The translations under genes were made by a program, and so were the position numbers. Shown here in pieces: positions 1 through 19,777 of a stretch of 22,490 nucleotides of DNA (positions within the stretch are counted from its first letter, which is position 1; each line of letters begins with the position of its first letter). A model generated the notes under the pieces. The model searched no databases and was not told the DNA's origin. It was given only the letters and a program-made list of their open reading frames with translations. The DNA comes from a virus. The stretch covers positions 1 through 22,490 of the IMG/VR virus record IMGVR_UViG_3300035150_000016; one strand, given 5' to 3'.

Positions 1-174
1 GTCGTTGAGGATGTCGGGGTTGTGGACTTCGAACCAGCGATCAAAGCGCGGAGTGACCTTGGCCGTGTCGGCACCGGTGCACCAGATTTCAACATCCGGA
101 ACGTGAAAACGTGCCTGTTGCCTCGTTGAGACGGCCGTTCCGAGGATATCGACCTTTCGCGAGACAACAGACAC
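1..174 (-). CDS. Phage protein of unknown function, N-terminal 58 residues (runs off window)
   Basis: Open reading frame on the minus strand that leaves the window at position 1, so only the N-terminus is visible. I chose the GTG at 174 because a strong GGGGGAG ribosome site lies about 6 bases upstream and no ATG is available. The translation contains VDILGTAV followed by EIWCTGADT and then TPRFDRWFEVHN. This resembles small phage proteins with an I-G-x-A start, an EIW turn and a DRWFE-H motif that sit near head/tail genes and look like Rossmann-type folds. No biochemical role is known to me. It follows the capsid and decoration genes in the same direction and is probably co-transcribed with them. 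Confidence 0.7.
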   Translation of the reverse strand, partial: MSVVSRKVDILGTAVSTRQQARFHVPDVEIWCTGADTAKVTPRFDRWFEVHNPDILND

Positions 175-202
175 GTTACACTCCCCCGCCTTACATCGGC
201 GG

Positions 203-742
203 TTAGCTTAGGACTGCTTCGCCCTGGTTGGCGACAATTTCCCACCGCGTGGACGATACGGCCCGGAACCGCACCGTGTCGCCCTGTACGAGGGTGACGG
301 TGCCGCCGGACGCGCCGATGGTGTAAGCCGTCGAGCCGTCAACGATGGTCGAGCCGGTCGACGCCGTGGCCAGATTGGCCATGACCTCCAGGCCCTTTGC
401 CGGGGTCGGCAGGCTGTACGCCTGATTGGTGATGTCCGACAGCACGTTGAATCCGTAATCGAGGTCGGTGTCCTCGCTCGATTTGTCGTGCTGGTTCATG
501 TCGGTGCTGATCACGGCGAGCGAAACGTCTCCGCTGGCCGACGTGACCTGAGCGCGGCACTCGCCGTCGCTGCCCTTGATGTAGATGACATCGCCGGTTT
601 GCAGAACGCTGGCGTAGGTGTCGAAATACGCGTCGGCCAGGATCGTGGCCAATGCGTCGGTAGCCGAAACGTATGTCGGGAACTTGGGGGAACCCTTGCG
701 CCCGGCACCGGTCGGGTCCAAACCCTGTGCATCGAAGCTCAT
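203..742 (-). CDS. Probable virion decoration or head-fibre protein
   Basis: 179 residues, 24 bases downstream of the major capsid gene, with ribosome site AAAGGA before the ATG. The sequence is rich in Gly, Ser, Thr and Val with no long helices, as expected for a beta-rich structural protein. Residues about 27-75 hold a motif of the form AYFDTYASVLQTGDVIYI followed by a short strand and VTSASG. The C-terminus (GGTVTLVQGDTVRFRA then RWEIV) looks like the beta-hairpin end common in phage appendage proteins. Position directly after the capsid gene supports a capsid-decorating or head-fibre role. This is inferred from composition and context, not from a firm family match. The YF-x-L-x-GD motif recurs in the early gene at 15964. 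Confidence 0.7.
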   Translation of the reverse strand: MSFDAQGLDPTGAGRKGSPKFPTYVSATDALATILADAYFDTYASVLQTGDVIYIKGSDGECRAQVTSASGDVSLAVISTDMNQHDKSSEDTDLDYGFNVLSDITNQAYSLPTPAKGLEVMANLATASTGSTIVDGSTAYTIGASGGTVTLVQGDTVRFRAVSSTRWEIVANQGEAVLS

Positions 743-766
743 CTTTGGTGTCCTTTCCTGCCGGGG

Positions 767-1609
767 TTAGCTCTCGGTGGTCGAAACTTCGACGATGCCG
801 AGCGCGTCGATTGCGACCGAACCGGCGGCGAAAATGCCGTTGGCCAGCCACGAGGTCATGTCCGGGATGTAGTTGATTTCCGTGCGGAACTCGATCCCCT
901 GGGCAAGACCAATTGCGGTGTTGTGATAGAAATACGAGGTCCGGACGCTCGACGCGACCGGCAGGCCGCCTTCGTCGCGGTCCTCCATTTCCTTGAAATC
1001 GAAAGCCAGCCACCGCGTAATCTCGCCGTCGACCAGCGCCTTGATGATGTTCTTGTCGACGGTATTGGCGTCGTCGTCGCCGAGAAGCTGCTCCATCCCG
1101 TAGGACGATACGCACGCGGTACGCATACCGTTTTTCGGGACGCCCTGCTGGTTGAGCAACCGGCGGGCGCGGCGGCATTTGGCGGTGTTGAGGCCGGAGG
1201 ACGTACCGCCGATATCGGTGCTGATCGTCAACGTGGTGGAGGCCGCGTCGAGAGCATCCAGGATCAGTTGATCCTCGCGGCGTCCGATGGCCCCGGAGAT
1301 GACCTCGGCCAACGCCTGCTGTTCGTCGTAGTTGACCTTCTGCTGATCGAAGATGTCGGTGAACTCGGGAGCGTTCCAATCTTCGATGGTGGCCGTCGCC
1401 TTGGTGTGCGCGATGTTCATCGGCACGACGCGGGTTTGCGGAACGCGGCGGGTCGCGGTGCCCTTGCCGATTTTCGGGAAACGGTAGGTCGAACCGACAA
1501 CGCCGGAGCGGAGACGGACGGTCTCGCGCAGCATACCCATGCCCTGGTATGCCTGCTTGACTATTGCGTCGAATTCCGCAACCGCATTGTTTGTGAGGGT
1601 TTTCGACAT
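767..1609 (-). CDS. Major capsid protein
   Basis: 280 residues, within the size range of compact HK97-fold capsid proteins. The opening (LTNNAVAEFDAIVKQAYQG, then RLRSGVVGSTYRFPKIGKG) and later GAIGRREDQLILDAL and IEFRTEINY segments resemble a podophage capsid family usually labelled phage capsid protein (Phage_capsid_2-like). It lies straight after the scaffold gene and before a decoration-like gene, the usual order for a head module. The start has an AGAAAGG ribosome site eight bases upstream. A dedicated promoter and a leader of about 215 bases precede it, which fits the need for much more capsid than portal or scaffold. The fold assignment is from family knowledge; identity as the capsid gene is from sequence plus context. 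Confidence 0.88.
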   Translation of the reverse strand: MSKTLTNNAVAEFDAIVKQAYQGMGMLRETVRLRSGVVGSTYRFPKIGKGTATRRVPQTRVVPMNIAHTKATATIEDWNAPEFTDIFDQQKVNYDEQQALAEVISGAIGRREDQLILDALDAASTTLTISTDIGGTSSGLNTAKCRRARRLLNQQGVPKNGMRTACVSSYGMEQLLGDDDANTVDKNIIKALVDGEITRWLAFDFKEMEDRDEGGLPVASSVRTSYFYHNTAIGLAQGIEFRTEINYIPDMTSWLANGIFAAGSVAIDALGIVEVSTTES

Positions 1610-1832
1610 TTGCCGAACCTTTCTGAGCTATGAGTACGATCCTTAAAATCGCATCCGATAGCCAAGCTTGGTTCGGGTCCGTCGTGCGGATAGCCGGTCT
1701 TTGCTTGGGTCTTCCGCTGCCTGTTCTGATCCCCCGGCCCTTTCGGGGTAGCGGGGGAGGGGGAGCCTAACAGGGGTGAAAGTGCCCCCCCTCTTTTATT
1801 CTCCCGACGCACCGGGAGAAAAACTCCATTTC
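1610..1832 (-). other. Long 5' leader of the capsid gene, no coding sequence seen
   Basis: The space between scaffold stop and capsid start is about 300 bases and holds no convincing gene; the only frame across it is Pro/Gly-rich, starts with GTG and lacks a ribosome site. On the minus strand the leader carries an 8-bp inverted repeat (arms TTCTCCCG and CGGGAGAA, about 1803-1824) close to the likely transcript 5' end. It also has a short CCC-GAAA-GGG hairpin near 1737-1750. These may stabilise the capsid mRNA, but that is inference. Confidence 0.5.
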
Positions 1833-1861
1833 GATATACGCTGGTTTTTTGAACTGGTCAA
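1833..1861 (-). promoter_or_regulatory. Sigma70-like promoter for the capsid gene
   Basis: On the minus strand a TTGACC -35 box (1861-1856) and a TATATC -10 box (1838-1833) are separated by exactly 17 bases. It lies just after the terminator hairpin that follows the scaffold gene and points at the capsid gene. The -35 differs from consensus at one position; the -10 is weaker. Confidence 0.6.
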
Positions 1862-1889
1862 GACAAAGGGGCCGCAACATGGCGGCCCC
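1861..1889 (-). terminator. Rho-independent terminator after the scaffold gene
   Basis: Perfect 8-bp stem GGGGCCGC / GCGGCCCC with a six-base loop, followed on the minus strand by TTTGTCTT. It sits 23 bases after the scaffold stop codon. The T tract is interrupted, so read-through is likely and would let some terminase/portal transcript continue into the capsid gene. Confidence 0.7.
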
Positions 1890-1912
1890 TACGGTCTGTC
1901 TGTGCCGTGCGT

Positions 1913-2887
1913 TTAGACGCCAAGCCCGCTTTCGGACGATCCGGACGGCGCGGTGCCAAACAGTTCCTTGCCCTGTTCCTGCCACTGCTCGTATTTCGCC
2001 GGTTCCTTGTGCGGGTCAGGCCGGGACTTGTACCATTCGGCTTTGGATGGCAGTTCCCCGGCAACGCCGGTCCCTTCGCCGGTCGGGAGCGGTTTTCCGC
2101 CCGCCAGCATCCGCATCTTGTTGACGACGGACAGGCCGACCGCATCCCGGCCCATAGCCTTGACGTGCGCGGCTTCGGCGGCCGACATCTCGCCGGACTT
2201 CACCAATCCGTCGACCCAGGCGACGTTGGCCATGCCAACGGCCTTGTAGTTCTTGCCGAACTTCTCGCCCTCGGCCTTTTCGTCAAACGGCGGCGCGGTC
2301 ATGCCATCCGCGATCAACATCGTTCCCTTGACGATGGTCTCGAACTGCTTTGGTGTCAGCTTGGCTTCATGGGCGACCTTGAGAAACTCCGTAAGGCCGG
2401 GATCGTCCGACTTGATCGCCTCCAGGTTCTTGACGCCTTCCGGAGTCTGGATTTGCCCTTCATGGAGAATATCGTCGCTCAGATAGTCCTCCGGCTTTTC
2501 CGGAATCTCGCCCGGCTCGCCGGTTTCCTTGATGGTCTTGATTTCGTTCTGTAGCTTGGTGAGTTCCTTCCGGCTGTCGAGTGCGGACTTCAGGGCGGCC
2601 CCCACGTTCACTTCGCTCTTGTCCTTATCCCAGAACGCGTCGGGCACCTTGATCGTTTCTTCGCCGAACTTGTATTCGTGCTCGTCCTTACCTCCGTCGT
2701 CGCCTTCCTTCGGCGGCGTGCCATCGCCCATTAGGCCGCCGGAGCGGTCAAGATTGTCATCGCCGCCTTCGTCGCCGTCACCTTTGCCGCCGCCCGTGCC
2801 GTCGCCGTCCCCCTCTTCCTCGGCATTGCAGAACAGCGCCGGGGAATGACGCTGCTCAAGCCAGTCTTCGATGCTGCTGATTTTCAT
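1913..2887 (-). CDS. Scaffolding (capsid assembly) protein
   Basis: 324 residues, strongly acidic. Residues about 23-70 are a low-complexity Gly/Asp/Glu stretch, followed by FGEETIKVPDAFWDKDKSEV, a helical segment with ALKSALDSRKELTKLQNEIKT, and a more ordered C-terminal half ending in Pro/Lys/Ser-rich sequence. An acidic, helical, partly disordered protein placed just before the capsid gene is the classic pattern for a T7-gp9-type scaffold, which lines the procapsid and leaves during packaging. No protease domain is visible. Ribosome site AAGGA precedes the ATG. The function rests on position and composition; sequence similarity to scaffolds is diffuse. Confidence 0.78.
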   Translation of the reverse strand: MKISSIEDWLEQRHSPALFCNAEEEGDGDGTGGGKGDGDEGGDDNLDRSGGLMGDGTPPKEGDDGGKDEHEYKFGEETIKVPDAFWDKDKSEVNVGAALKSALDSRKELTKLQNEIKTIKETGEPGEIPEKPEDYLSDDILHEGQIQTPEGVKNLEAIKSDDPGLTEFLKVAHEAKLTPKQFETIVKGTMLIADGMTAPPFDEKAEGEKFGKNYKAVGMANVAWVDGLVKSGEMSAAEAAHVKAMGRDAVGLSVVNKMRMLAGGKPLPTGEGTGVAGELPSKAEWYKSRPDPHKEPAKYEQWQEQGKELFGTAPSGSSESGLGV

Positions 2888-2913
2888 GGTCGGTCCTTCT
2901 GGTGGTCTAGGGT

Positions 2914-3369
2914 TCAGTAGCCGCCGCTGCGCCGGGTCGCAAGACGGCGCTGACGCTCGAGGATGGACGGCTTATTCGCCTGATAGAGTCGGAACACGTC
3001 GTAGAGTTCCGGCTGATACCGCACCGCCTCCGGGGTCATGGTCCGGTCGAGTTCGTCAAGCCCGGCGATGATCTTGGCGGTTACGGCCTCGACGGCGGAC
3101 ACTTCCGGGGCTTTCTGAGGCTCGGAAACGGCCTTCGGGTCGGGAACGTCGTTGGCATCACCAGAGGTCACGGCAACGCCCGCACGCTCGTCTTCGGTGA
3201 TACGTCGCACGTCGCCAAGCCCGGCGGCCTCGACTTCCTTGCGCGACACCGGGTGCCCGATGGCTTCGCGGATGACGTTCAGGTTGGGCAACCCGGCCAC
3301 GGTCCAATGGGCGTCATCGTCGTGGTTCAGATTGCCGATAGCAACAATGAGTTCATCGGTGTTAGTCAT
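2914..3369 (-). CDS. Conserved phage structural-module protein, 151 aa, function unknown
   Basis: I place the start at the ATG at 3369 because GAGGAAGG lies just upstream and the ATG overlaps the stop of the preceding gene (ATGA), indicating coupled translation; a longer frame extending to 3633 would overlap that gene heavily. The N-terminus has NLNHDDDAHWTVAGLPNLNVIREAIGHPVSRKEVE, a pattern (D-D-x-H-W-T-x-x-G-x-P followed by a helix and an S/T-R-x-E turn) I associate with small proteins in phage head modules. The C-terminal third is predicted helical and basic at its end. It lies between portal and scaffold genes. The role is unknown; a connector or assembly accessory is possible. Confidence 0.75.
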   Translation of the reverse strand: MTNTDELIVAIGNLNHDDDAHWTVAGLPNLNVIREAIGHPVSRKEVEAAGLGDVRRITEDERAGVAVTSGDANDVPDPKAVSEPQKAPEVSAVEAVTAKIIAGLDELDRTMTPEAVRYQPELYDVFRLYQANKPSILERQRRLATRRSGGY

Positions 3370-3749
3370 TTTGCCTTCCTCGTCTTGCGGTTTCGCGGGG
3401 CATTCTCGCCGTCCTGGCTGGCGAACTGTGGTGGCCCGGCCTCGGCTCGGGCGATAGCCCGCTTGATTTCCCGGAAAAAAGCGAACTGCCCCTCCCGATA
3501 GAAGCTTCTGAACGCGATTGTCATGCCGTCGCCGGTGTCCATTGGTTCGAACCGGCACCCGTTGGAAAGCCTTTCCATCCACGCTAAAACGCGCTGCCCC
3601 GCTGGAGTCCGGAAAGTTTGGGCAACGGCACAATCGAAGTCGAACTGCTCTTCAGCGTCCCGTTGCCTCTCTTCGTCGGTCCTCGAGTCTCTTGTGGCCC
3701 GGTTGATGACCGGCCAGCCGCCCATATCTCCGAAAAAATCTTCTGCCAT
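3366..3749 (-). CDS. Bbp19-like phage protein between portal and scaffold
   Basis: 127 residues. The core AVAQTFRTPAGQRVLAWME, followed by a loop and a FYREGQFAFFREIKRAI helix, resembles the small Bbp19-like family found next to the portal gene in podophages such as Bordetella phage BPP-1. The pattern is a helix ending in a TPAG turn, then an REG motif and a long helix. The C-terminus is basic. It begins 30 bases after the portal stop and its own stop overlaps the next start by four bases. The family is known by position in the head module; its exact virion role is not established to my knowledge. Confidence 0.72.
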   Translation of the reverse strand: MAEDFFGDMGGWPVINRATRDSRTDEERQRDAEEQFDFDCAVAQTFRTPAGQRVLAWMERLSNGCRFEPMDTGDGMTIAFRSFYREGQFAFFREIKRAIARAEAGPPQFASQDGENAPRNRKTRKAK

Positions 3750-3779
3750 GGTCTGGTGTCCTCTGGTTGGAAAGCCCTA

Positions 3780-5387
3780 TCAGGCGGCGGCTTGCAGCGC
3801 CCCGCCTCCGTCGTTGGCGGGAATGGCCCCGCCCTGCTGGTTGGCTATGATCGAACCGACCATCCTTTGCAGCCCCTCGCGCTGCTGCTGATCGCGGACA
3901 ATACGCCGGTCGACGCCCATTTTCTCGGCGAACCACTCGCCAGCGTCTTCCACGTTGCAGCCGATCAAAAACGCCTCTTCTCCCATTTCCTTGAGGATGG
4001 CCAGCCAGTTCGTAGCCGCCTGAACGTCGTTGAGGTTCTGGGCCTGGGCGAGCGGTGACTGAATCTGTACGTCGATGGTCCCGCCATTGACCTTGATTTT
4101 CCGGCCCCGCTCAATCGGGATGATCCCGGCCTGAGCCAAGGTGTTGAGGGTGATTTGCACCACAGGCCGGATAAGCTCGGACATCAGGCGGCCGAATGGC
4201 GCTCCGATGTCCTGCTGAAGCTGTTTCAGGCGGGCGACGATTTCGGTAGCCGACCGCACCGACCCTTCCTCCGGCGGGAGCGTGCCGTCCATCATGATTG
4301 TCTTGATCGACATGATAAGATCGTCTGCAAGGATATCGGCAACGCTGAAATTTGCCCCGGTTTCCAGCGCTTGCAAGGATGGCCCCAAAGCCCCGCCGTT
4401 GCTGCCAACCGGGATCACCGCGCCCGGCGTGATGCGGATAGTATAGGGGTTCAGCACCCCGTCATCTACCGCCGTCCACACCCCGGAAACCGCGATGCTG
4501 GCGTTCATCAGCACGAGTTCTTTCAGCTTGTTCAGGGTCTTGGCGTCGGGCAGGGCAAACAGCACGGGACCGCGCCCTTCGACTTCGCCGGGAAGCTTGA
4601 TCCAGCGGGTAATGACCCACGGTGTATCGATGAAATCGTGCTCGACAAGGCGGTGGGGCTGTTTCTTGCTCGCGCCCTGCGTCTTGTATTCGAGCATGAC
4701 GTCATAGTGCCAGTTGTCCTGCTGATAGTCGTAATACGTCGCCTCAGTGATCCGAACTGTCTTGGTCGGATCGTCGGCGATGTCCTTTTCCAAGCCGCTC
4801 GGCATGTCGACCTTGAACGCGGCCCATGTCTCTTCGATGTTGCCGATCGCCACTTCGTGGATACGGTAAACGGCGCACACCCCGCCCCAAGCCCCCTCTT
4901 CCAAGGCGCATTGGGCTTGCGGCACGGCGACATATCGGACCGGCATTTCGTCGTCGCCGGGGATCACCATCATGCACCCGGTCCCAACGGCCAAATCCAG
5001 CAGGAATTCGGCAATGGACACATCGAAGTTGCTGGTGGAAATCGCGGTAAACAGTGTTTCGGTCAGGCTGTCGAGTTTCTTGGCGACTTCGCCCCGCCGC
5101 TCCTGAGGGATGAATGCGCCGGGGATCAGCTTGGCCCAACGCTGGAATGGCGGCATGAGTTCGGATTGCAGCCGGGAGGCGAAACGCATGGTCGACACCA
5201 TCAACGTGCTGTCGAACACGTGGCGCATCTTGCCGTCTCCCGGCTGCGCCCGGCCGTTGTTGTCGTAGGTGTTCCGCATGGGGAGCGCTAGCTCATATGC
5301 GGATTGACGGATGCTGTTCCAACGTGATTTACGGTCCCAGGCTTTCCGGGACCGCTTCATGACCTGTTCGGGGGACAGGCGGGCCAT
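3780..5387 (-). CDS. Portal protein (T7-type head-tail connector)
   Basis: 535 residues, the usual length for podophage connectors. The N-terminus (RSRKAWDRKSRWNSIRQSAYELALP) followed by FDSTLMVSTMRFASRLQSELMPP matches the start of the T7 gp8-like head-to-tail connector family: an opening helix, a D-S-T turn and an A-x-x-L-x-S-x-L-x-P-P helix. The segment LLDLAVGTGCMMVIPGD also fits. The long middle helix and the TAxEIVARLKQLQQDIGAPFGRLMSELIRP segment correspond to the portal stem/wing helices. The protein forms the ring at one capsid vertex through which DNA enters. Its ATG shares a base with the stop of the 78-aa gene (TAATG), so translation is likely coupled. The C-terminus is disordered and Ala/Gly-rich. 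Confidence 0.93.
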   Translation of the reverse strand: MARLSPEQVMKRSRKAWDRKSRWNSIRQSAYELALPMRNTYDNNGRAQPGDGKMRHVFDSTLMVSTMRFASRLQSELMPPFQRWAKLIPGAFIPQERRGEVAKKLDSLTETLFTAISTSNFDVSIAEFLLDLAVGTGCMMVIPGDDEMPVRYVAVPQAQCALEEGAWGGVCAVYRIHEVAIGNIEETWAAFKVDMPSGLEKDIADDPTKTVRITEATYYDYQQDNWHYDVMLEYKTQGASKKQPHRLVEHDFIDTPWVITRWIKLPGEVEGRGPVLFALPDAKTLNKLKELVLMNASIAVSGVWTAVDDGVLNPYTIRITPGAVIPVGSNGGALGPSLQALETGANFSVADILADDLIMSIKTIMMDGTLPPEEGSVRSATEIVARLKQLQQDIGAPFGRLMSELIRPVVQITLNTLAQAGIIPIERGRKIKVNGGTIDVQIQSPLAQAQNLNDVQAATNWLAILKEMGEEAFLIGCNVEDAGEWFAEKMGVDRRIVRDQQQREGLQRMVGSIIANQQGGAIPANDGGGALQAAA

Positions 5388-5623
5388 TAGGAACCGCCGC
5401 CCAACTTATCGGAAATGCCGGAGCGCCCGGTCTGGGTGTTGAGGGTGACGCCCCCGCCGGAGCCGCGCGCCGCAATCACGGCCAGGGCCGCTTTCTTTTC
5501 CTTTTTGGTTTCGGCTTCCTGGCGGGCGATGCTCTCGGCCTGTTTCTTCTGTGCCGCTACTAGCTCGGGATCAGGGCCTTTCGGCTTCGACCCGCCAAAT
5601 AGCTTCCCGACCACTTTGCCCAT
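5387..5623 (-). CDS. Small helical protein before the portal gene
   Basis: 78 residues with a Gly/Lys/Pro-rich N-terminus (FGGSKPKGPDPE), one charged helix rich in Ala, Lys, Glu and Gln (about 20-50), and a Gly/Ser-rich tail. An AGGAGA ribosome site precedes the ATG and the stop overlaps the portal ATG. Short proteins of this type are common immediately before portal genes in podophages. I recognise no function. It overlaps the end of the preceding gene by 53 bases. Confidence 0.72.
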   Translation of the reverse strand: MGKVVGKLFGGSKPKGPDPELVAAQKKQAESIARQEAETKKEKKAALAVIAARGSGGGVTLNTQTGRSGISDKLGGGS

Positions 5624-6074
5624 TGCCGCCGTCTCCTACCGGTAGTATGCGCCCCCCCTGTCGAGCGACAAGATACCTGAATAACTGCCGTGGTGTCCAG
5701 ATGCGCCAATTCCGCACCGCGATAATCGCCTTGACCATCGTAACGCACGTCAAAAAGCCGCGCGGCACGAAGCCGGGATTTGGTGGCGTATAGACGCCAA
5801 CTTCGACAATCGCCGTCGCACCGTCCTCGTACATCTGTTTTGCGACTGTCAGCGGGTCGGCCCACCACACGGCCACGTCGACGCCCCACAGCAAGGGCTC
5901 GACCTTGACGCTGTAATCCGTCGTCATCAAACCGGGCTCGCCAAGCGGCGCGGGCAGGATCACCCAGCAATGCCGGAACGCAGGGTCGGTGAAGAAATCC
6001 CAGAAGGATTTTCGGGAGGAAGGGGAAAACACGACATAGGCCAGGAAGCGCCGGGCCGGTTGCTGCTGGATCAC
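5571..6074 (-). CDS. Conserved podophage protein with His/Cys motif, 167 aa
   Basis: The start is taken as the GTG at 6074, which overlaps the stop of the 56-aa gene (GTGA). The open frame continues farther upstream, but that part would lie over two better-supported genes. The core has FRHCWVILPAP, then a central VDVAVWWADP segment, a GVYTPPNP loop, FLTCVTMVKAII and WTPRQLFRYL. I associate this order (F-R-H near the start, then C-V-x-x-V-K, then TP-x-Q-L-x-x-Y-L) with small proteins located between terminase and portal genes. An early His and later Cys could suit a permuted papain/NlpC-like fold, but this is speculation. The C-terminal 35 residues run over the next gene and may be unstructured. 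Confidence 0.72.
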   Translation of the reverse strand: MIQQQPARRFLAYVVFSPSSRKSFWDFFTDPAFRHCWVILPAPLGEPGLMTTDYSVKVEPLLWGVDVAVWWADPLTVAKQMYEDGATAIVEVGVYTPPNPGFVPRGFLTCVTMVKAIIAVRNWRIWTPRQLFRYLVARQGGRILPVGDGGNGQSGREAIWRVEAERP

Positions 6075-6241
6075 CAGAAGACCCACCACCAGAAGCGGGC
6101 CGCCGCGACCAGAAGGCCCATGACGATGAAGATCGTCCCGGCCAAGGGGATCAGTTCCAAGGAATTGGCCGCCGTCCGGCGTATGTTCGCCAGTACGACG
6201 GCCTTGAACAGGGCGAGTTTGTAAGGGTTGATTATGACCAT
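6071..6241 (-). CDS. Small single-pass membrane protein, 56 aa
   Basis: Reading frame of 56 residues starting at an ATG inside the last codons of the preceding gene (10-base overlap) and ending in a TGA that overlaps the next GTG. A basic N-terminal segment is followed by a hydrophobic stretch (about 30-50: LIPLAGTIFIVMGLLVAAA) and a Trp-rich C-terminus. Start and stop overlaps on both sides support translation even though no separate ribosome site is visible. It could be a membrane-active small protein such as a holin-like or superinfection factor, but nothing in the sequence proves that. Confidence 0.62.
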   Translation of the reverse strand: MVIINPYKLALFKAVVLANIRRTAANSLELIPLAGTIFIVMGLLVAAARFWWWVFW

Positions 6242-6453
6242 TCGATGCCATGGCGTTGAAGTGCCGCCTCAACATCGAGCGCTGAGGCTTCGCTCATCAT
6301 GCGGTCAATTCCGTCGTCTGTGCGGATGGCAAGATTGCCCCCGACTTTGGCGACAACCACACCATAACAGTCTTCGCACCATGGCACCCTGTCACCTACG
6401 GCAAAAACGCCTAAGTCTTCCGGAACTTGCGTCCAGATGTCGCCATATGCCAT
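6232..6453 (-). CDS. Small protein of unknown function, 73 aa
   Basis: Begins at the ATG at 6453, which shares a base with the stop of the preceding gene (TGATG), so translation is probably coupled. The sequence has a beta-rich look: DLGVFAVGDRVPWCEDCYGVVVAKVGGNLAIRTDDGI, including a C-E-D-C pair, then a short C-terminal helix (SALDVEAALQRHGI). Proteins of this length with a GDRV start often form SH3-like barrels, but I cannot assign a family. Part of the terminase-to-portal gene string. Confidence 0.65.
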   Translation of the reverse strand: MAYGDIWTQVPEDLGVFAVGDRVPWCEDCYGVVVAKVGGNLAIRTDDGIDRMMSEASALDVEAALQRHGIEWS

Positions 6454-6728
6454 CACAGTGCCGCCGGATAGGTCACGGCAACGCGGCCCCTGCCGTCGAT
6501 GACGTGGAACTGACCCTCTCGCCAAGCCCACAACTCCCTGTTTGCGCGCGCCAAATTGCGGCGCACGGCACGCGGAGGGAGACGGCGAAGCGAAGAGGTC
6601 GGAACGCGCTTGGCCCGGAGATGCTTTCCGGGCTCACGCTTCTTTTCCTGGCGACACCGGAACGGAAAATGGAAGTAGTCCGTGAAGTCGATCTTATTCA
6701 GAAGGATCGGAAAAATCTTGTTTCTCAT
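6453..6728 (-). CDS. Small basic protein after the terminase gene, 91 aa
   Basis: The ATG at 6728 lies one base after the terminase stop and has AGGGGTG eight bases upstream. A longer frame reading back into the terminase gene exists but is less likely. The protein is markedly basic, with Arg/Lys clusters in the middle (RCRQEKKREPGKHLRAKR, LRRLPPRAVRRNLAR) and a C-terminal beta-like end (WREGQFHVIDGRGRVAVTY). The charge suggests nucleic-acid contact, possibly linked to packaging, but no family is recognised. The stop overlaps the next start. Confidence 0.62.
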   Translation of the reverse strand: MRNKIFPILLNKIDFTDYFHFPFRCRQEKKREPGKHLRAKRVPTSSLRRLPPRAVRRNLARANRELWAWREGQFHVIDGRGRVAVTYPAAL

Positions 6729-6729
6729 C

Positions 6730-8427
6730 TTAGTCACCCCTGCTAAAGACATCGAAATTCGTCTTCGCCATTGTAACCACTCCGGGGCGTATGCGTCCAG
6801 CGCCTTCACCCGGAACCTGTTGCGTCCCCCGGTTCAGCGCCCTGGTTTCACCGGCTCCCGACAGCCCATATCCGAGCGCGTCTCCGATGTCCGACCACGG
6901 GTGCGTCTTGTCTGGCGTCTCGCTATAGCGTTCCTGGCCGCTGGTGTTGATGCGACGATAACACCATGCGCCGTTCAGCGCCTTGATCAGCTTGGTACAG
7001 CGGCGATGGATCAGGATGCCCGGCCGCCCGTCGATGTTGCGGCCCATTGGAGCCTTGATGGCGTCGACCCGTACCTTGATGTCTTGCGACGGCGCGGGGC
7101 GAGCGGGCCATCCCTTGGCAATCAGATGTTGGAACGCGACTGTCTCGAAAATCCCGTCTCGCGTCCTGCCCGCCGGATCGCCCCACAGGTGCGCGCAGGG
7201 CTGGCTTCCGAACGTGTCGGCCCAAACGAATGACAGTTCGTCGCTGAAGCGGTCAAGGCCCATATCGGACGCGATGCACTCGTTGTGAACCAGCCACATC
7301 CCGCGCGGCCCTCGTTGGAACAGCACGCCAGCCGGATTGAGAGTATTGCCTCCGATGTCCGCCCCGACTTGCGGCGGTGCGTTGGCAATCGGCAAATCAT
7401 CCACCACCATGGCCAGTTCGTCGAAATCCGGGATAACCGGCTTGCCCTCGCGGACGAACTGATATCGGCCCTGGTAGTAGCAGACGATCCAATCGCGGTC
7501 TTTGCTCGACAGCGATTTGATATAGTAGCTCCCCGGCCCGAACGGATCGCCCGTGGGGTCGAGCGCCTTGTTGACCTGAAGGTGATAGATGTTCTCGGCT
7601 TGTGGGTTGACGCACCACAGGGACTTGGCCGCGCGGTGAACATGCCTTGGGTCATAAACGGTATACTTGAACGGCTCGCTTTCGACCGTCCGCCACTCCT
7701 TTTCCGCGACCTGTACGACTTCCAAAACGGCGGGCGGCTGAAAGTAGAAAGACCAGCCGGACGGTCGCCCGACATACTCGCCGTATTCGTCCACGCCCTT
7801 TTCGAGGCGATAAATCCAGTGATCTTGATCGGGCGGGTTGGTGTCGAGGATGATCCCGTACCATGTGCATTCGACCCCGCCTTGTTCCTTCGACGGGTAG
7901 CGCCCTACGCGATCCGTCGCCATATCGACCAGCGACTTCGGAATTTCCCGAACCTCGTTAAACCAGATCAGCGTCCCCTCGAACGACAGCAGTTTGCGCA
8001 CGTCCTTCGGCTTATCCAGGCTCATGAACTCGACCAGAAGGTCAAGGCCGGGCGATCCCTCGTAGGTGCCCGCTTCCCTATCGATCCACTTGAAGTTCTT
8101 GGGGCGGATGCGGATGTGGTGGCGCATGGGCGCGGTCTGAACCATCGGCCCACACGCTTCCTCGGGGAAGATTGACAGCCACGTTGCAACCGTCGTGCGC
8201 TTCATGTCCGGTTCGGTATTTCGGACGATGGCCGCCTTGAAGCGGCGCACCCCGTCAGGCGACGGCTCTTGCTCCATGGCGCGGGCCATGATTTCCGCGC
8301 AACACACCGTGGACTTTCCAGAGCCGAGTGGGCCAACCACGAGCCGCACGAAATTATCGTCGTTGATGAAGTTCCACAGCGTCGGGTGTTGGGAAAGGTC
8401 TAGGTCTTGTACCCAGGGATAGGGCAT
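6730..8427 (-). CDS. terL: Terminase large subunit (packaging ATPase and nuclease)
   Basis: 565 residues. The N-terminal ATPase has a Walker A motif GPLGSGKS at 32-39 and a Walker B-type LIWFNE at about 153-158, with Glu158 as the likely catalytic carboxylate. The C-terminal part has the RNase-H-like nuclease pattern: Asp357 in GADIGG, Asp417 in WGDPAG, and Asp513/Asp516 in HPWSDIGDALGY. The protein docks on the portal, pumps DNA into the procapsid and cuts the concatemer. Only GGGGCG precedes the ATG, a weak ribosome site, so coupling to the gene ending three bases upstream is likely. No clear small terminase is next to it; the 114-aa gene upstream is a positional candidate only. Confidence 0.94.
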   Translation of the reverse strand: MPYPWVQDLDLSQHPTLWNFINDDNFVRLVVGPLGSGKSTVCCAEIMARAMEQEPSPDGVRRFKAAIVRNTEPDMKRTTVATWLSIFPEEACGPMVQTAPMRHHIRIRPKNFKWIDREAGTYEGSPGLDLLVEFMSLDKPKDVRKLLSFEGTLIWFNEVREIPKSLVDMATDRVGRYPSKEQGGVECTWYGIILDTNPPDQDHWIYRLEKGVDEYGEYVGRPSGWSFYFQPPAVLEVVQVAEKEWRTVESEPFKYTVYDPRHVHRAAKSLWCVNPQAENIYHLQVNKALDPTGDPFGPGSYYIKSLSSKDRDWIVCYYQGRYQFVREGKPVIPDFDELAMVVDDLPIANAPPQVGADIGGNTLNPAGVLFQRGPRGMWLVHNECIASDMGLDRFSDELSFVWADTFGSQPCAHLWGDPAGRTRDGIFETVAFQHLIAKGWPARPAPSQDIKVRVDAIKAPMGRNIDGRPGILIHRRCTKLIKALNGAWCYRRINTSGQERYSETPDKTHPWSDIGDALGYGLSGAGETRALNRGTQQVPGEGAGRIRPGVVTMAKTNFDVFSRGD

Positions 8428-10062: not shown

Positions 10063-10266
10063 TTAGTCGCTGGCCTCGCGCCGGTTGACGTGCTTGAACG
10101 TGGCGCTGTCGATCTCGACGCCGGTGTCATTGCGTTCGGAGAACAGGGCCGACACGTCGCCGTTTTGCACGTTTTGGAGCGTTTGTAGAGCTTCGATAGA
10201 CTTGGGAACGTCGCTCGTGTCGACGGGGAGAAAAGCCTTGATGGTAATCGCGTAGCCAGAACGCAT
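10063..10266 (-). CDS. Small protein of unknown function, 67 aa
   Basis: Ribosome site GAAAGGA lies eight bases before the ATG. The sequence begins MRSGYAITIKAFLPVDTSDVPKSIEALQTLQN and ends with SERNDTGVEIDSATFKHVNRRE, giving a strand-helix-strand impression. No family is recognised. The region just upstream carries the CACCAGA element seen before several other leftward genes. Confidence 0.62.
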   Translation of the reverse strand: MRSGYAITIKAFLPVDTSDVPKSIEALQTLQNVQNGDVSALFSERNDTGVEIDSATFKHVNRREASD

Positions 10267-10305
10267 GATGCGATCCTTTCTTCTGGTGTTTAAAGCCCAC
10301 GGGTA

Positions 10306-10560
10306 TTATTGCAGAAGAGACGATGTTTCCGCAATGTCTTCGTCTTCGCCGTCCTCGTACACGACGTAGACGTGGCCGTGGTCGAGGTAGCTGGCGTCGA
10401 GATGAATTGGAACGCAGTCAGCAGGAACGGCGGCCTCCATTATCTCCTTGACGCCTTTGCGTAGGGCGTCCTCTTCCTGTGAGAGTTGCTGTAGACGCTC
10501 ATGGAGCGCCCTGAAGCGTTCGGTGGTTTCCGCGTCGAGCGGGATTGATTTCTTGGTCAT
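10306..10560 (-). CDS. Small acidic protein with N-terminal coiled coil, 84 aa
   Basis: The ATG at 10560 shares a base with the stop of the preceding gene (TGATG); GAGG is eight bases upstream. The N-terminal half is helical (FRALHERLQQLSQEEDALRKGVKEIME), the C-terminal half acidic with short strands (HGHVYVVYEDGEDEDIAE). No family is recognised. Coupled to the 191-aa gene. Confidence 0.66.
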   Translation of the reverse strand: MTKKSIPLDAETTERFRALHERLQQLSQEEDALRKGVKEIMEAAVPADCVPIHLDASYLDHGHVYVVYEDGEDEDIAETSSLLQ

Positions 10561-11159: not shown

Positions 11160-11194
11160 AAAAGCGCCGCGCCGCTGGACGCGAACGGCGCGGC
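11160..11194 (-). terminator. Terminator-like hairpin before the 191-aa gene
   Basis: Perfect 9-bp GC-rich stem (arms GCCGCGCCG and CGGCGCGGC, 11-base loop) followed on the minus strand by GCTTTTGTG. It lies between the zinc-ribbon gene ending at 11347 and the gene starting at 11135. A 13-codon frame ends at the base of the stem, so regulated read-through (attenuation) is possible. Confidence 0.6.
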
Positions 11195-14501: not shown

Positions 14502-14520
14502 TTCTTCCTCCATCAACGGC

Positions 14521-14539
14521 GGCGGGCATTCTGCCCGCC
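14521..14539 (-). other. Intercistronic hairpin
   Basis: Perfect 7-bp stem GGCGGGC / GCCCGCC with a five-base loop, 18 bases after the stop of the GapR-like gene and 20 bases before the next ATG. No T tract follows, so it is more likely an mRNA-stabilising or processing element than a terminator. Confidence 0.45.
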
Positions 14540-14557
14540 GGGCCGTCGTCGGGCTGG

Positions 14558-16242: not shown

Positions 16243-16270
16243 TTGCTGAAACCGTCTCCGGCGGACGCAA

Positions 16271-16309
16271 GCCCCGGCAACCAAGCCGACCCCTCCCGGT
16301 TGCCGGGGC
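16271..16309 (+). promoter_or_regulatory. Perfect 12-bp hairpin before the 165-aa gene
   Basis: Arms GCCCCGGCAACC (16271-16282) and GGTTGCCGGGGC (16298-16309) with a 15-base C-rich loop. It lies in the 90-base space between the first two rightward genes, 23 bases before the ATG. No T tract follows, so it is not a standard terminator; it could protect or regulate the downstream mRNA. Confidence 0.65.
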
Positions 16310-16332
16310 ACCAACCTTCGAAAGGAACGCAG

Positions 16333-16830
16333 ATGAGAAGCGATTATACGATTTTTCTGGCCTCTGATACCGTATGCGGTGTCTTGGCCTCGTATTCCGT
16401 CAACAGCAAGGGCGAAGGCGACGACGTGAAGTTGTTCAAGACCTTCGACCCGAGTTTGCAGGTCGGGGATTTCCTGATCGTGCCGACCGAAACCCGGCAC
16501 AAGATGACGGTGGTTCGGGTCGAAGCGGTCGACGTGGAGCCGGATTTCGACAGTGATCAGCCGTGTCTGTGGGTGATCGGCAAGATTCCGCCGGAATATG
16601 CGACCGAGTTCCATCGGCTCAAGTCTCAGGAAGGCGATATGCTGGCCAAGATCAAGGAAGGCGAGAAGCGCCGCCGCCGCGAGGAACTCCGGAAGGACTA
16701 CATCAACGGGGACATGGACGAAATCCGCTCCATGCCGTTGATCGCCAACAACTCCGGCGCGGTTTCGCCTGCCCCGAGGGAATTCGCTCGCACCCCCGCC
16801 CCTGATGATGACGGCGAATTCCCTATCTAA
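16333..16830 (+). CDS. Early phage protein, 165 aa, unknown
   Basis: The ATG at 16333 is preferred because AAAGGAACGCAG is directly upstream; the open frame back to 16243 runs through the hairpin spacer. The first 85 residues look beta-rich (TIFLASDTVCGVLASYSVNS, then LQVGDFLIVPTETRHKMTVVRVEAVDVEPDF). The L-x-V-G-D-x-L-I-V strand and V-x-V-E-A loosely echo the preceding protein. Residues about 110-145 are helical and basic (EGDMLAKIKEGEKRRRREELRKDYI). The tail is Pro-rich. No family is recognised. Confidence 0.68.
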   Translation: MRSDYTIFLASDTVCGVLASYSVNSKGEGDDVKLFKTFDPSLQVGDFLIVPTETRHKMTVVRVEAVDVEPDFDSDQPCLWVIGKIPPEYATEFHRLKSQEGDMLAKIKEGEKRRRREELRKDYINGDMDEIRSMPLIANNSGAVSPAPREFARTPAPDDDGEFPI

Positions 16831-16840
16831 CCTATTCTAT

Positions 16841-17010
16841 GCCGCCGGGTCGATTGGCTCCTATGCCAGAGGCCCCAGGGAAGAGGCCCGGCGGCGAGTG
16901 CATCTCGCATACGCTCGATGCACTATCAAGAATCTTTAACAAGATCCTTGATCAGGGAACGGGGCGGGAAAGGCCAAGGGGCCGAACCGCTGGCGGAGGC
17001 ACCCCGCCCC
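16841..17010 (+). ncRNA. Tandem four-hairpin element before the recombination genes
   Basis: About 170 bases without a gene, folded by eye into four adjacent units. H1 is 16841-16849 paired with 16887-16895 (9 bp, GCCGCCGGG/CCCGGCGGC) around a small inner hairpin. H2 is 16897-16904 with 16917-16924 (8 bp). H3 is 16925-16930 with 16947-16952 plus 16932-16936 with 16941-16945 (11 bp, one mismatch, TAAC loop), directly touching H2. H4 is 16961-16968 with 17003-17010 (8 bp) enclosing two short hairpins. It ends nine bases before the ribosome site of the next gene, so it may be a structured leader, a separate small RNA or a DNA replication or packaging element. No known family is recognised. Confidence 0.45.
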
Positions 17011-17034
17011 TAGTACCCCGAAGGAATGAAGCCC

Positions 17035-17229
17035 ATGGCACATTGCCGGAAGTGTGGCCGCCGCATCTACAAGAATAAATATTCCCGAATATTCGAGTGC
17101 GCGCATTGCGGCCCTCGCTCCTCAAAACCCACGACGGAAGAGCAGGAAAGGCGCTTGTCCAATGAACGACAAACCCGAGAAGTCCCGCGAAGTGGCGAAG
17201 GCGGAACCCGCCGATCTGCAAACTTATGA
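17035..17229 (+). CDS. Small zinc-ribbon protein, 64 aa
   Basis: The ATG at 17035 is chosen over the one three codons earlier because AAGGA is nine bases before it and touching the other. The N-terminus has CRKCGRRIYKNKYSRIFECAHCG, two CxxC pairs that would bind one zinc, followed by a charged tail. The tail overlaps the start of the ERF gene by 68 bases, and only the first 30 residues look constrained. Confidence 0.6.
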   Translation: MAHCRKCGRRIYKNKYSRIFECAHCGPRSSKPTTEEQERRLSNERQTREVPRSGEGGTRRSANL

Positions 17230-17941
17230 AGAGCTATCGCCGCTATCGATCATCCGGCAGGCCGTCACGTCGGGCGCGGACCCCGACACTCTGGCGAAGC
17301 TCATGGACCTTCAGGAACGCTATCAGGCGAACGAGGCGAAGCGGGCCTTTACCCGCGCGCTCAATGCCTTCAAGGCCAATCCTCCGGAAATCTTCAAGAC
17401 CAGCGCGGTAGACTATACGCCACAGGGAAAGGCGCGCGTGCATTACATGTATGCTGCGCTCGACACGGTGTGCGGTATCCTCAACCCGGCGCTACGGAAT
17501 CACGGCTTGTCTTTTCGTTGGGAAACAGCGACCGAGAACAACCTGATTAAGGTGACGTGCGTCCTTACCCATGAACTCGGGCACAGCGAAGAGACGAGCC
17601 TGCAATGCACGGCGGATCAATCCGGCGGGAAGAACCCGATTCAAGCCATTGGGTCGGCCGTGACCTATCTCCAGCGATACACGCTTCTCGCTGCCACCGG
17701 AATGGCCGTACAGGGACAGGATGACGACGGGCGAAGCTCGCAGCAGAAGGAAGAGGCGGGGCCAGTTTCCGAGGAACAGCGCACGGCGCTTCAGGCCGCT
17801 CTTGACGACGCCGGATTGTCCGCCGCCGCGTTGTGCAAATGGCTCAGGGTATCCGCCGTTCCCGAAATTAAGGCCGCCGATTTCGACAAGGCAATGGGGG
17901 CGATCAGGCGGCAGGCGGCAGACGCGAGGGGGCAAAAATGA
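17162..17941 (+). CDS. erf: ERF-family single-strand annealing protein
   Basis: 259 residues. The segment LMDLQERYQANEAKRAFTRALNAFKANPPEI, then KARVHYMYAALDTVCGILNPALRNHGLSFRWET and NPIQAIGSAVTYLQRYTLLAATGMA, is the full signature of the P22 ERF-like superfamily: W/Y-x-A-N-E-A-x-x-A-F, K-x-H-Y-x-Y-A-x-L, G-S-A-x-T-Y-x-x-R-Y-x-L. These form rings on single-stranded DNA and pair complementary strands during phage recombination and circularisation. The C-terminal part (SEEQRTALQAALDDAGLSAAALCKWLRV) is a helical partner-binding region. The ATG at 17162 excludes an upstream shadow frame. It overlaps the exonuclease start by four bases, so both are made together. Confidence 0.93.
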   Translation: MNDKPEKSREVAKAEPADLQTYEELSPLSIIRQAVTSGADPDTLAKLMDLQERYQANEAKRAFTRALNAFKANPPEIFKTSAVDYTPQGKARVHYMYAALDTVCGILNPALRNHGLSFRWETATENNLIKVTCVLTHELGHSEETSLQCTADQSGGKNPIQAIGSAVTYLQRYTLLAATGMAVQGQDDDGRSSQQKEEAGPVSEEQRTALQAALDDAGLSAAALCKWLRVSAVPEIKAADFDKAMGAIRRQAADARGQK

Positions 17942-18735
17942 AAATCCATGACGTAGAACAAAGGTCTGCGGAGTGGTTCGCCGTCCGGACCGGAAAGCCG
18001 ACAGCGAGCGCGTTTTCTCGGATCGTTGCTCCTCTAGTCAACATCCCGGATACCTACAACGAGAACGCCCCTTTCGGTGTGTGCTGCTGGTGTGGCAAGG
18101 ATGACTTGCCCAGGAAGAAAGACGGAACTCCAAAGACGAACGTTCGCTATCACCCGGATTGTAAAAAAGAACGTGATAGGAACGTAGGCAAGGCCAATCC
18201 CGGCGCGGCGCGGCTATCCTACGCCCGCGAACTCGCCGCCGAAATCGTCGGCGGCCCTGATGTCAACCAGTGGGGCGGAAACATGGATTTGGAGCGCGGG
18301 AAATTTCTGGAAGAGGACGCGCTTTCCATGTACTCGTTTATCCGTGGGGTTGAGGTTCGGCGCGTCGGGTTCATCACCGACGACGACGAAACAATCGGAT
18401 GCTCCCCTGACGGGCTGGTCGGCGACGATGGCATGATTGAGATCAAATGCCTGAACGCCAATCACCATATTGACGTGATCATGCGGTGGCACGACAAGCG
18501 GGAAATTGCTCCGGATTATGTCGCGCAGCCACAGGGGCAGATGTACGTTTCCGGGCGGCCGTGGTGCGACGTGGTATTTTACCATTACGCCTTGCCGCCG
18601 CTGATCATCCGCCAGACGCCAGACGCCGAATACCGGGCGGCTCTGGCCACCGGGATAACCGAAGTGATCGCCGAGCGCGACCGCATCGTTGGGGTGCTGC
18701 ATCAACTCAAGAACGGAGATATCGATGAGATGTAG
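17938..18735 (+). CDS. YqaJ/lambda-exonuclease-like nuclease with inserted Cys/His cluster
   Basis: 265 residues. The N-terminus (QRSAEWFAVRTGKPTASAF) is the YqaJ substrate-side motif. The core contains LERGKFLEEDA, then Asp158 in CSPDGLV and Glu168-x-Lys170 in MIEIKC, the same D-x9-E-x-K spacing as lambda exonuclease (Asp119, Glu129, Lys131). A later YVAQPQGQMYVSG helix is also typical. The enzyme resects double-strand ends 5' to 3' and loads the ERF protein. Between residues about 45 and 85 there is an unusual insertion with Cys49, Cys50, Cys52, His72 and Cys75, probably zinc-binding. The ATG overlaps the ERF stop. Confidence 0.92.
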   Translation: MKIHDVEQRSAEWFAVRTGKPTASAFSRIVAPLVNIPDTYNENAPFGVCCWCGKDDLPRKKDGTPKTNVRYHPDCKKERDRNVGKANPGAARLSYARELAAEIVGGPDVNQWGGNMDLERGKFLEEDALSMYSFIRGVEVRRVGFITDDDETIGCSPDGLVGDDGMIEIKCLNANHHIDVIMRWHDKREIAPDYVAQPQGQMYVSGRPWCDVVFYHYALPPLIIRQTPDAEYRAALATGITEVIAERDRIVGVLHQLKNGDIDEM

Positions 18736-18937: not shown

Positions 18938-19139
18938 GCAGAAAGTGTCGACGCGCCGATTACGCCGCGATGCTGACCGGGCGGAGCGCGAAGGCCGCTC
19001 CCTTGCAAAATGGCCCAGATGGGTTGATGCCGCTAGAGCGCTGTTAAATGCCAGTCGTCAGTTAAACCGGGCAGCCGATGAGATCGACGCGCTATATGTG
19101 GCGTCCCCTACACGGACACAAGGAACGGATGGGAAATGA
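18927..19139 (+). CDS. Small basic helical protein, 70 aa
   Basis: Tandem ATGATG start overlapping the previous stop by 11 bases. The N-terminal half is very basic (KVSTRRLRRDADRAEREGR), the C-terminal half helical (WVDAARALLNASRQLNRAADEIDALY). No motif is recognised. The last codon overlaps the next ATG by four bases. Confidence 0.62.
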   Translation: MMAKQKVSTRRLRRDADRAEREGRSLAKWPRWVDAARALLNASRQLNRAADEIDALYVASPTRTQGTDGK

Positions 19140-19777
19140 ACACGATTGCTGCCCTCTTTGTCGAAACCGACGGCTGCTACTACGGGCTGCCGGGCGTCGA
19201 TCCGTGGGACATTGAGCGGGACGCTAGGCGTTATCAGGGACCGTGGCCGGTGGTCGCGCATCCACCGTGCCAACGATGGGGAAGATATTGGCATGGGTCG
19301 CCGAGCAAACCACACCAATACCAGCTTGGCGCGGATGGGGGATGTTTCGCTACGGCGCTACATGCGGTCAGAATTTACGGTGGCATCCTGGAACACCCGA
19401 AAGACAGCCGGGCTTGGGAATGGTTCGGTCTGAATAAACCGCCACATGACGGCGGTTGGGTCGAGTCGGACTTCATGGGCGGTTGGACGTGCTGCGTCTC
19501 ACAGGGCCACTACGGGCATCTGGCTGGAAAACCGACGTGGCTCTATGCGGTCGGTTGTGAATTGCCGGAACTGCTCTGGGGGCCATGCGAACAGCGGATT
19601 CACCCGCGCGCTCTGGAACTACACGGGTATGAGAAAGCTAGGCGCATCGGAATGATGGCGATGGTCGGCGGCAAAGATAAAACCCGTATCAGAAACGCAA
19701 CACCGCTGGAATTCCGAGACGTGCTGATCGACATGGCGCGGTCGGTGTCCGACAAGCGGACAGAGGAAGGCGGTTAA
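19136..19777 (+). CDS. Phage protein resembling a reduced C5 DNA methyltransferase
   Basis: 213 residues. AALFVETDGCYYGLPGVDPWDIERDARRY, VVAHPPCQRWG, GGILEHPKDSRAWEWFGL and the W-x-x-x-V-x-Q-x-H-Y-G-H-x-A-x-K-x-T-W-L-Y segment match a family often seen in proteobacterial phages and usually left unnamed. PPCQ is like motif IV of cytosine-C5 methyltransferases, whose Cys attacks the base, and LEHP is placed like motif VI. The usual F-x-G-x-G cofactor motif is absent. Modification of host or phage DNA is therefore possible but unproven. The start overlaps the preceding stop (ATGA). Confidence 0.72.
   Translation: MNTIAALFVETDGCYYGLPGVDPWDIERDARRYQGPWPVVAHPPCQRWGRYWHGSPSKPHQYQLGADGGCFATALHAVRIYGGILEHPKDSRAWEWFGLNKPPHDGGWVESDFMGGWTCCVSQGHYGHLAGKPTWLYAVGCELPELLWGPCEQRIHPRALELHGYEKARRIGMMAMVGGKDKTRIRNATPLEFRDVLIDMARSVSDKRTEEGG

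Follow-up and report, generated by a model that had tools for sequence, protein, structure and literature searches.

What is a tight row of hairpins doing in the gap ahead of a phage's recombination genes? The gap in question lies in a 22.5-kb virus record (IMG/VR IMGVR_UViG_3300035150_000016) of an uncultured tailed phage that is podovirus-like and poorly known; the whole stretch analysed, 22,490 nucleotides, is called the window here. A sequence-only reading had described four adjacent stems between 16841 and 17010 and offered a leader regulating recombinase translation, or a DNA element such as an origin, as explanations. We re-examined the stems, the spacer that holds them and the explanations that have been or can be given for them.

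The spacer and its setting

Leftward of ~15.9 kb, the genes of the window lie on the minus strand and include, by PHROGs matches, those for a major head protein, a head–tail adaptor and a terminase; a DUF1376 protein (Pfam) is encoded among them. From 15964 onward, genes lie on the plus strand, in the order 92-aa ORF, 165-aa ORF, zinc-ribbon ORF, ERF, YqaJ exonuclease and further small genes. The features on which the argument turns are as follows.

16333–16830, plus strand: upstream ORF of 165 aa, codon score +0.48, stop codon at 16828–16830
16831–17034, plus strand: non-coding intergenic spacer, preceded by the 165-aa ORF and followed by the zinc-ribbon/ERF/exonuclease genes
16841–16895, no strand assigned: hairpin H1, with an inner stem and 9 perfect bp, or 11 on the plus strand when a U–G pair is included
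16897–16924, no strand assigned: hairpin H2, 28 nt, 8 perfect outer and 2 inner bp, 4-nt loop
16925–16952, no strand assigned: hairpin H3, 28 nt, abutting H2, 4-nt loop
16961–17010, no strand assigned: H4, a G+C-rich 8-bp stem with a branched interior, not beyond chance
17021–17025, plus strand: Shine–Dalgarno-like AAGGA, 9 nt ahead of ATG 17035 and outside H1–H4
17162–17941, plus strand: ERF single-strand annealing protein (Pfam ERF, 2.5e-17; phrog_155, 3.9e-33)
17938–18735, plus strand: YqaJ-type exonuclease (Pfam YqaJ, 1.6e-17)

No relatives were found for the 92-aa and 165-aa ORFs, the latter having neither a Pfam or PHROGs match nor a relative in IMG/VR. Among phage isolates, the nearest portal relative belongs to Methylophilales phage MEP301 (44% identity). 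A near-identical contig, L070, spans only positions 1–8315 of the window and thus ends before the spacer. Farther along the plus strand, 19136–19777 encodes a phrog_12600 protein of unknown function whose counterparts in at least 80 phage contigs are 63–76% identical to it. By comparison of ERF, exonuclease and DNA, the loci of these contigs share little else with the present phage, and the protein looks horizontally mobile.

The spacer has a G+C content of 65%. Judged by the codon usage of the phage itself, ORFs running across it scored negative and the neighbouring genes +0.28 to +0.48; on these scores we rejected it as coding sequence, and the earlier remark that no gene fits here holds. 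A search for tRNA and tmRNA found none. None of the stems is followed by a T tract on either strand, a lack that the sequence-only reading had noted, and no terminator is predicted in the spacer; an intrinsic terminator, which would need such a tract behind a stable hairpin, was rejected. The spacing of AAGGA suits ATG 17035 and not ATG 17026, which the motif touches; the zinc-ribbon gene probably starts at ATG 17035.

Three of the four stems exceed chance

All four stems are present where they had been placed. H1 pairs over 9 of 9 bp (16841–49/16887–95), H2 over 8 of 8 bp (16897–904/16917–24), H3 over 11 of 12 positions (16925–36/16941–52) and H4 over 8 of 8 bp (16961–68/17003–10). H1 begins 10 nt past the stop codon of the 165-aa ORF. 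The unpaired gaps measure 1 nt between H1 and H2, none between H2 and H3, and 8 nt between H3 and H4, and H1–H3 together occupy exactly 112 nt (16841–16952).

Folding was compared with dinucleotide-preserving shuffles. The 170-nt region 16841–17010 gave z scores of -3.6 on the plus strand (1 of 200 shuffles as good) and -4.2 on the minus strand (0 of 200), and -3.9 with DNA parameters. For H1–H3 the folding energy was -54.9 kcal/mol on the plus strand (shuffle mean -34.8, sd 3.6) and -59.5 kcal/mol on the minus strand (mean -37.1, sd 3.8), about 5.6–5.9 sd from the mean, and none of 500 shuffles was as good on either strand. Three perfect stems of at least 8 bp fall within a single stretch of this kind, a total that none of 2000 shuffles matched. 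When the whole sequence was scanned with a 112-nt window, position 16841 ranked first of 560 on both strands (z -6.3/-5.3), a rank that is slightly overstated as the window boundaries were picked after the fold was seen. Of 91 G+C-rich intergenic spacers from other phage contigs, a single one passed a cut-off of z -3.4 on both strands.

Tested singly, H1 was equalled in stability by 6 of 500 shuffles on the plus strand and 20 on the minus strand, H2 by 3 and 0, and H3 by 5 and 0. H4 was equalled by 103 and 59 of 500, and its pairing probability ranged from 0 to 0.98 depending on the length of flank included; H2 and H3 were paired in all such flank-length tests and H1 in most. The earlier judgement that such dense pairing is unlikely by chance thus stands for H1–H3 and fails for H4. 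The four-hairpin picture reduces to three real hairpins and a G+C-rich background.

The stems do not agree on a strand. H1 leans to the plus strand through its U–G pair, and H3 to the minus strand, where 12 continuous pairs include one G–U; on the plus strand H3 forms 6 + 5 pairs with an A–C mismatch. The internal loop of H2 reads GA/GA on the minus strand and UC/UC on the plus strand. H1–H3 as a whole are equally or slightly more stable on the minus strand; the evidence is mixed and, by energy, leans slightly toward minus. Equal or higher stability on the minus strand is also what palindromic DNA would be expected to show.

Searches for relatives of the array

An Rfam search of the window gave no match at the gathering threshold, in keeping with the earlier statement that no known family was recognised, and permissive settings returned chance-level matches only (E 2.4 and 7.8). 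Comparison of the spacer with phage and plasmid records by blastn produced only chance pieces of 21–31 nt. In IMG/VR, a pattern describing H2 and H3 matched seven contigs that represent just two distinct sequences, both unrelated to the spacer, and a pattern for H3 had no match. A covariance model, built on the single sequence and run over 77 sources (0.67 Mb), found only the window itself. Relatives reached through ERF, the exonuclease, the portal protein or the 19136 protein carried no homologous spacer. H1–H3 are a real and statistically strong orphan structure that is, as far as can be seen, ordinary in kind.

In most of ~43 ERF relatives, ERF is packed against the preceding gene and the sequence upstream folds in an ordinary way; a leader conserved with the ERF operon was rejected on this ground and on the covariance-model result. 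One lineage (L005, L009, L146/L167), whose ERF is 45% identical over the alignment, has a hairpin spacer of its own (z -4.5) that is unrelated to H1–H3 and sits directly upstream of ERF. In L005 this block of ~90 nt lies at 4165–4252, and it is present in L009 and L167. It is cleanly missing between CAGG repeats from L084 (about position 1861), a contig otherwise 97–99% identical, which indicates that such hairpin blocks can be gained or lost. Another phage contig, L191, also has a very strong fold between two of its genes (10168–10348, z -6.3/-8.1).

Other hairpins in the window

The top-scoring inverted repeat of the whole window lies upstream of the 165-aa ORF.

16271–16309, no strand assigned: 12-bp perfect hairpin, no T tract

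It falls in 16243–16332; early in the plus-strand operon this is the one long spacer besides that of H1–H3. Hairpins lacking a T tract occur in further inter-gene spacers (1757–1890, 11166–11194 and 14520–14540), among them spacers between minus-strand genes. The first of these, which on the minus strand separates the 1913–2887 ORF from the gene for the major head protein, holds three consecutive hairpins. Overall, strong hairpins are in modest excess over shuffled sequence, with 20 against 8–18 at a lower cut-off and 7 against 1–4 at a higher one. The lowest z score of a 170-nt scan (-6.4) belongs to positions 86–255 on the minus strand, where an imperfect 18-bp hairpin (AACGTGTCTGTTGTCTCG / CGAGGCAACAGGCACGTT) covers what is probably the GTG start codon of the gene that follows 203–742 and could control the translation of that gene.

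A possible translational leader or riboswitch

A leader regulating recombinase translation, as first suggested, fits the spacer poorly. AAGGA and ATG 17035 lie outside every stem, and the hairpin nearest the start, H4, is at chance level with pairing that shifts when flank is included. The ~43 ERF relatives, most of which lack such a spacer and fold in an ordinary way ahead of ERF, speak against it as well. In longer folds, GGGGCGGG of H4 (16961–68) pairs with CCCGCCCC at 16795–16802 and thereby encloses H1–H3. We rejected a riboswitch-like closing helix formed in this way, since the upstream flank, once shuffled, gave folds as good in 112 and 17 of 300 trials. The locus thus resembles a riboswitch or translational leader in having structure upstream of genes and a possible competing closing helix, and differs from one in that this helix is not significant and the ribosome-binding site is in no stem.

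Discussion

We read H1–H3, tentatively and with a probability of roughly 0.4, as an intercistronic RNA structure in the early plus-strand operon that would act between cistrons as a 3′-end barrier, a processing element or an insulator. In the plus-strand transcript, the array would halt 3′–5′ decay into the upstream message and would part the ribosomes and fate of that message from those of the zinc-ribbon/ERF/exonuclease message. The two halves of the operon may thereby be expressed at different levels. That the array is transcribed, on this strand and to this effect, is what we infer; its structure, position and non-coding nature were observed directly.

We favour an intercistronic structure because H1–H3 exceed chance, with H2 and H3 paired at every flank length tested and H1 at most, and because the array stands between co-directional genes directly past a stop codon. 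The spacer bears neither a terminator signature nor a coding signal, and leaves the downstream ribosome-binding site free. The sister spacer with the 16271–16309 hairpin, and other spacers of the window, also carry hairpins without T tracts, and the separate L005/L146 lineage has an unrelated hairpin block directly upstream of ERF. Counted against this reading are the lack of any homologue in our searches, a stability on the minus strand that equals or slightly exceeds that on the plus strand, and the absence of a stem near the ~20 bp of typical RNase III sites.

The same position directly past the stop codon, with strong hairpins on both strands, would suit a terminator that is partial, Rho-assisted or devoid of a T tract, is possibly bidirectional and ends early transcription past the 165-aa ORF. 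We consider this unlikely, as the spacer has no T tract on either strand and no terminator prediction, and no promoter-like site was found from which the recombination genes could be transcribed anew. If the minus strand is taken as the RNA, the 28-nt hairpins H2 and H3 come to match in design, with loops GUAU and GUUA; both are stabler than on the plus strand, H3 through its 12 continuous pairs with a G–U and H2 with its GA/GA internal loop. A minus-strand product, whether small RNA or RNA domain, that lies antisense to the early operon is nevertheless improbable in our estimate: H1 favours the plus strand through its U–G pair, no minus-strand promoter is predicted near the spacer, and the neighbouring genes are all on the plus strand. 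Significance on both strands, and with DNA parameters, would equally be expected of a cluster of DNA palindromes that bind proteins, form cruciforms or act as a signal for replication or packaging, and cumulative GC skew has a broad minimum at ~15.5–17.5 kb. That minimum is confounded, because it falls where the genes change strand, near 15.9 kb. A double-strand origin, the other idea of the sequence-only reading, is disfavoured: the spacer has 65% G+C and no multi-copy iteron-like repeats, and the lowest G+C of the window (0.50) lies elsewhere, at ~12–13.5 kb. We give a DNA-level role the same low odds as an antisense RNA.

H1–H3 could also be a palindromic element gained as a unit, REP- or MITE-like, with little or no role. 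No relative of the phage was found to carry H1–H3, and the ~90-nt block that comes and goes upstream of ERF between the near-identical L005 and L084 offers a parallel. A REP or MITE proper was rejected, as no second copy turned up in the window, in phage or plasmid records or in the IMG/VR scans for the stem pattern, and we rate a gained element, too, as improbable. There is a slim chance that the 112-nt triple hairpin is a new cis-acting phage RNA through which early transcription is switched on into the genes for recombination; an antiterminator resembling put, or some other RNA that binds polymerase or ribosomes, would be an example. The put RNA of phage HK022 binds the zinc-binding domain of the RNA polymerase beta′ subunit and suppresses termination. 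By its published definition (PMC9378689) it is ~70 nt long and folds into two stem-loops, and each early operon holds one of two related copies, past its promoter. The array brings to mind an RNA that, in the manner of put, binds polymerase and makes it read through terminators of the early operon, since it too lines up hairpins in tandem within such an operon and leaves only 0–1 unpaired nt from one to the next. The array differs from put in having three hairpins rather than two and 112 rather than ~70 nt. It also lies ~0.9–1 kb past the region where the early promoter probably sits, and comparison of the spacer with the window revealed no second copy in the divergent operon. Since these features of put, which sequence can test, are missing, we do not class H1–H3 as put and think a put-like role highly doubtful.

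The intercistronic structure that we prefer, if functional, would be a compact case of a poorly known podovirus-like phage separating adjacent early genes without terminators. Typical RNase III sites have stems of roughly 20 bp. In position and structure, H1–H3 would be compatible with an intercistronic stabiliser or RNase III site if the flanking genes are co-transcribed. They resemble REP-type palindromes and T7-type RNase III sites in being hairpins past a stop codon, between co-directional genes and without a T tract, and they differ from both in forming three contiguous hairpins in a single copy, with stems of 8–12 bp that are shorter than those of typical RNase III sites.
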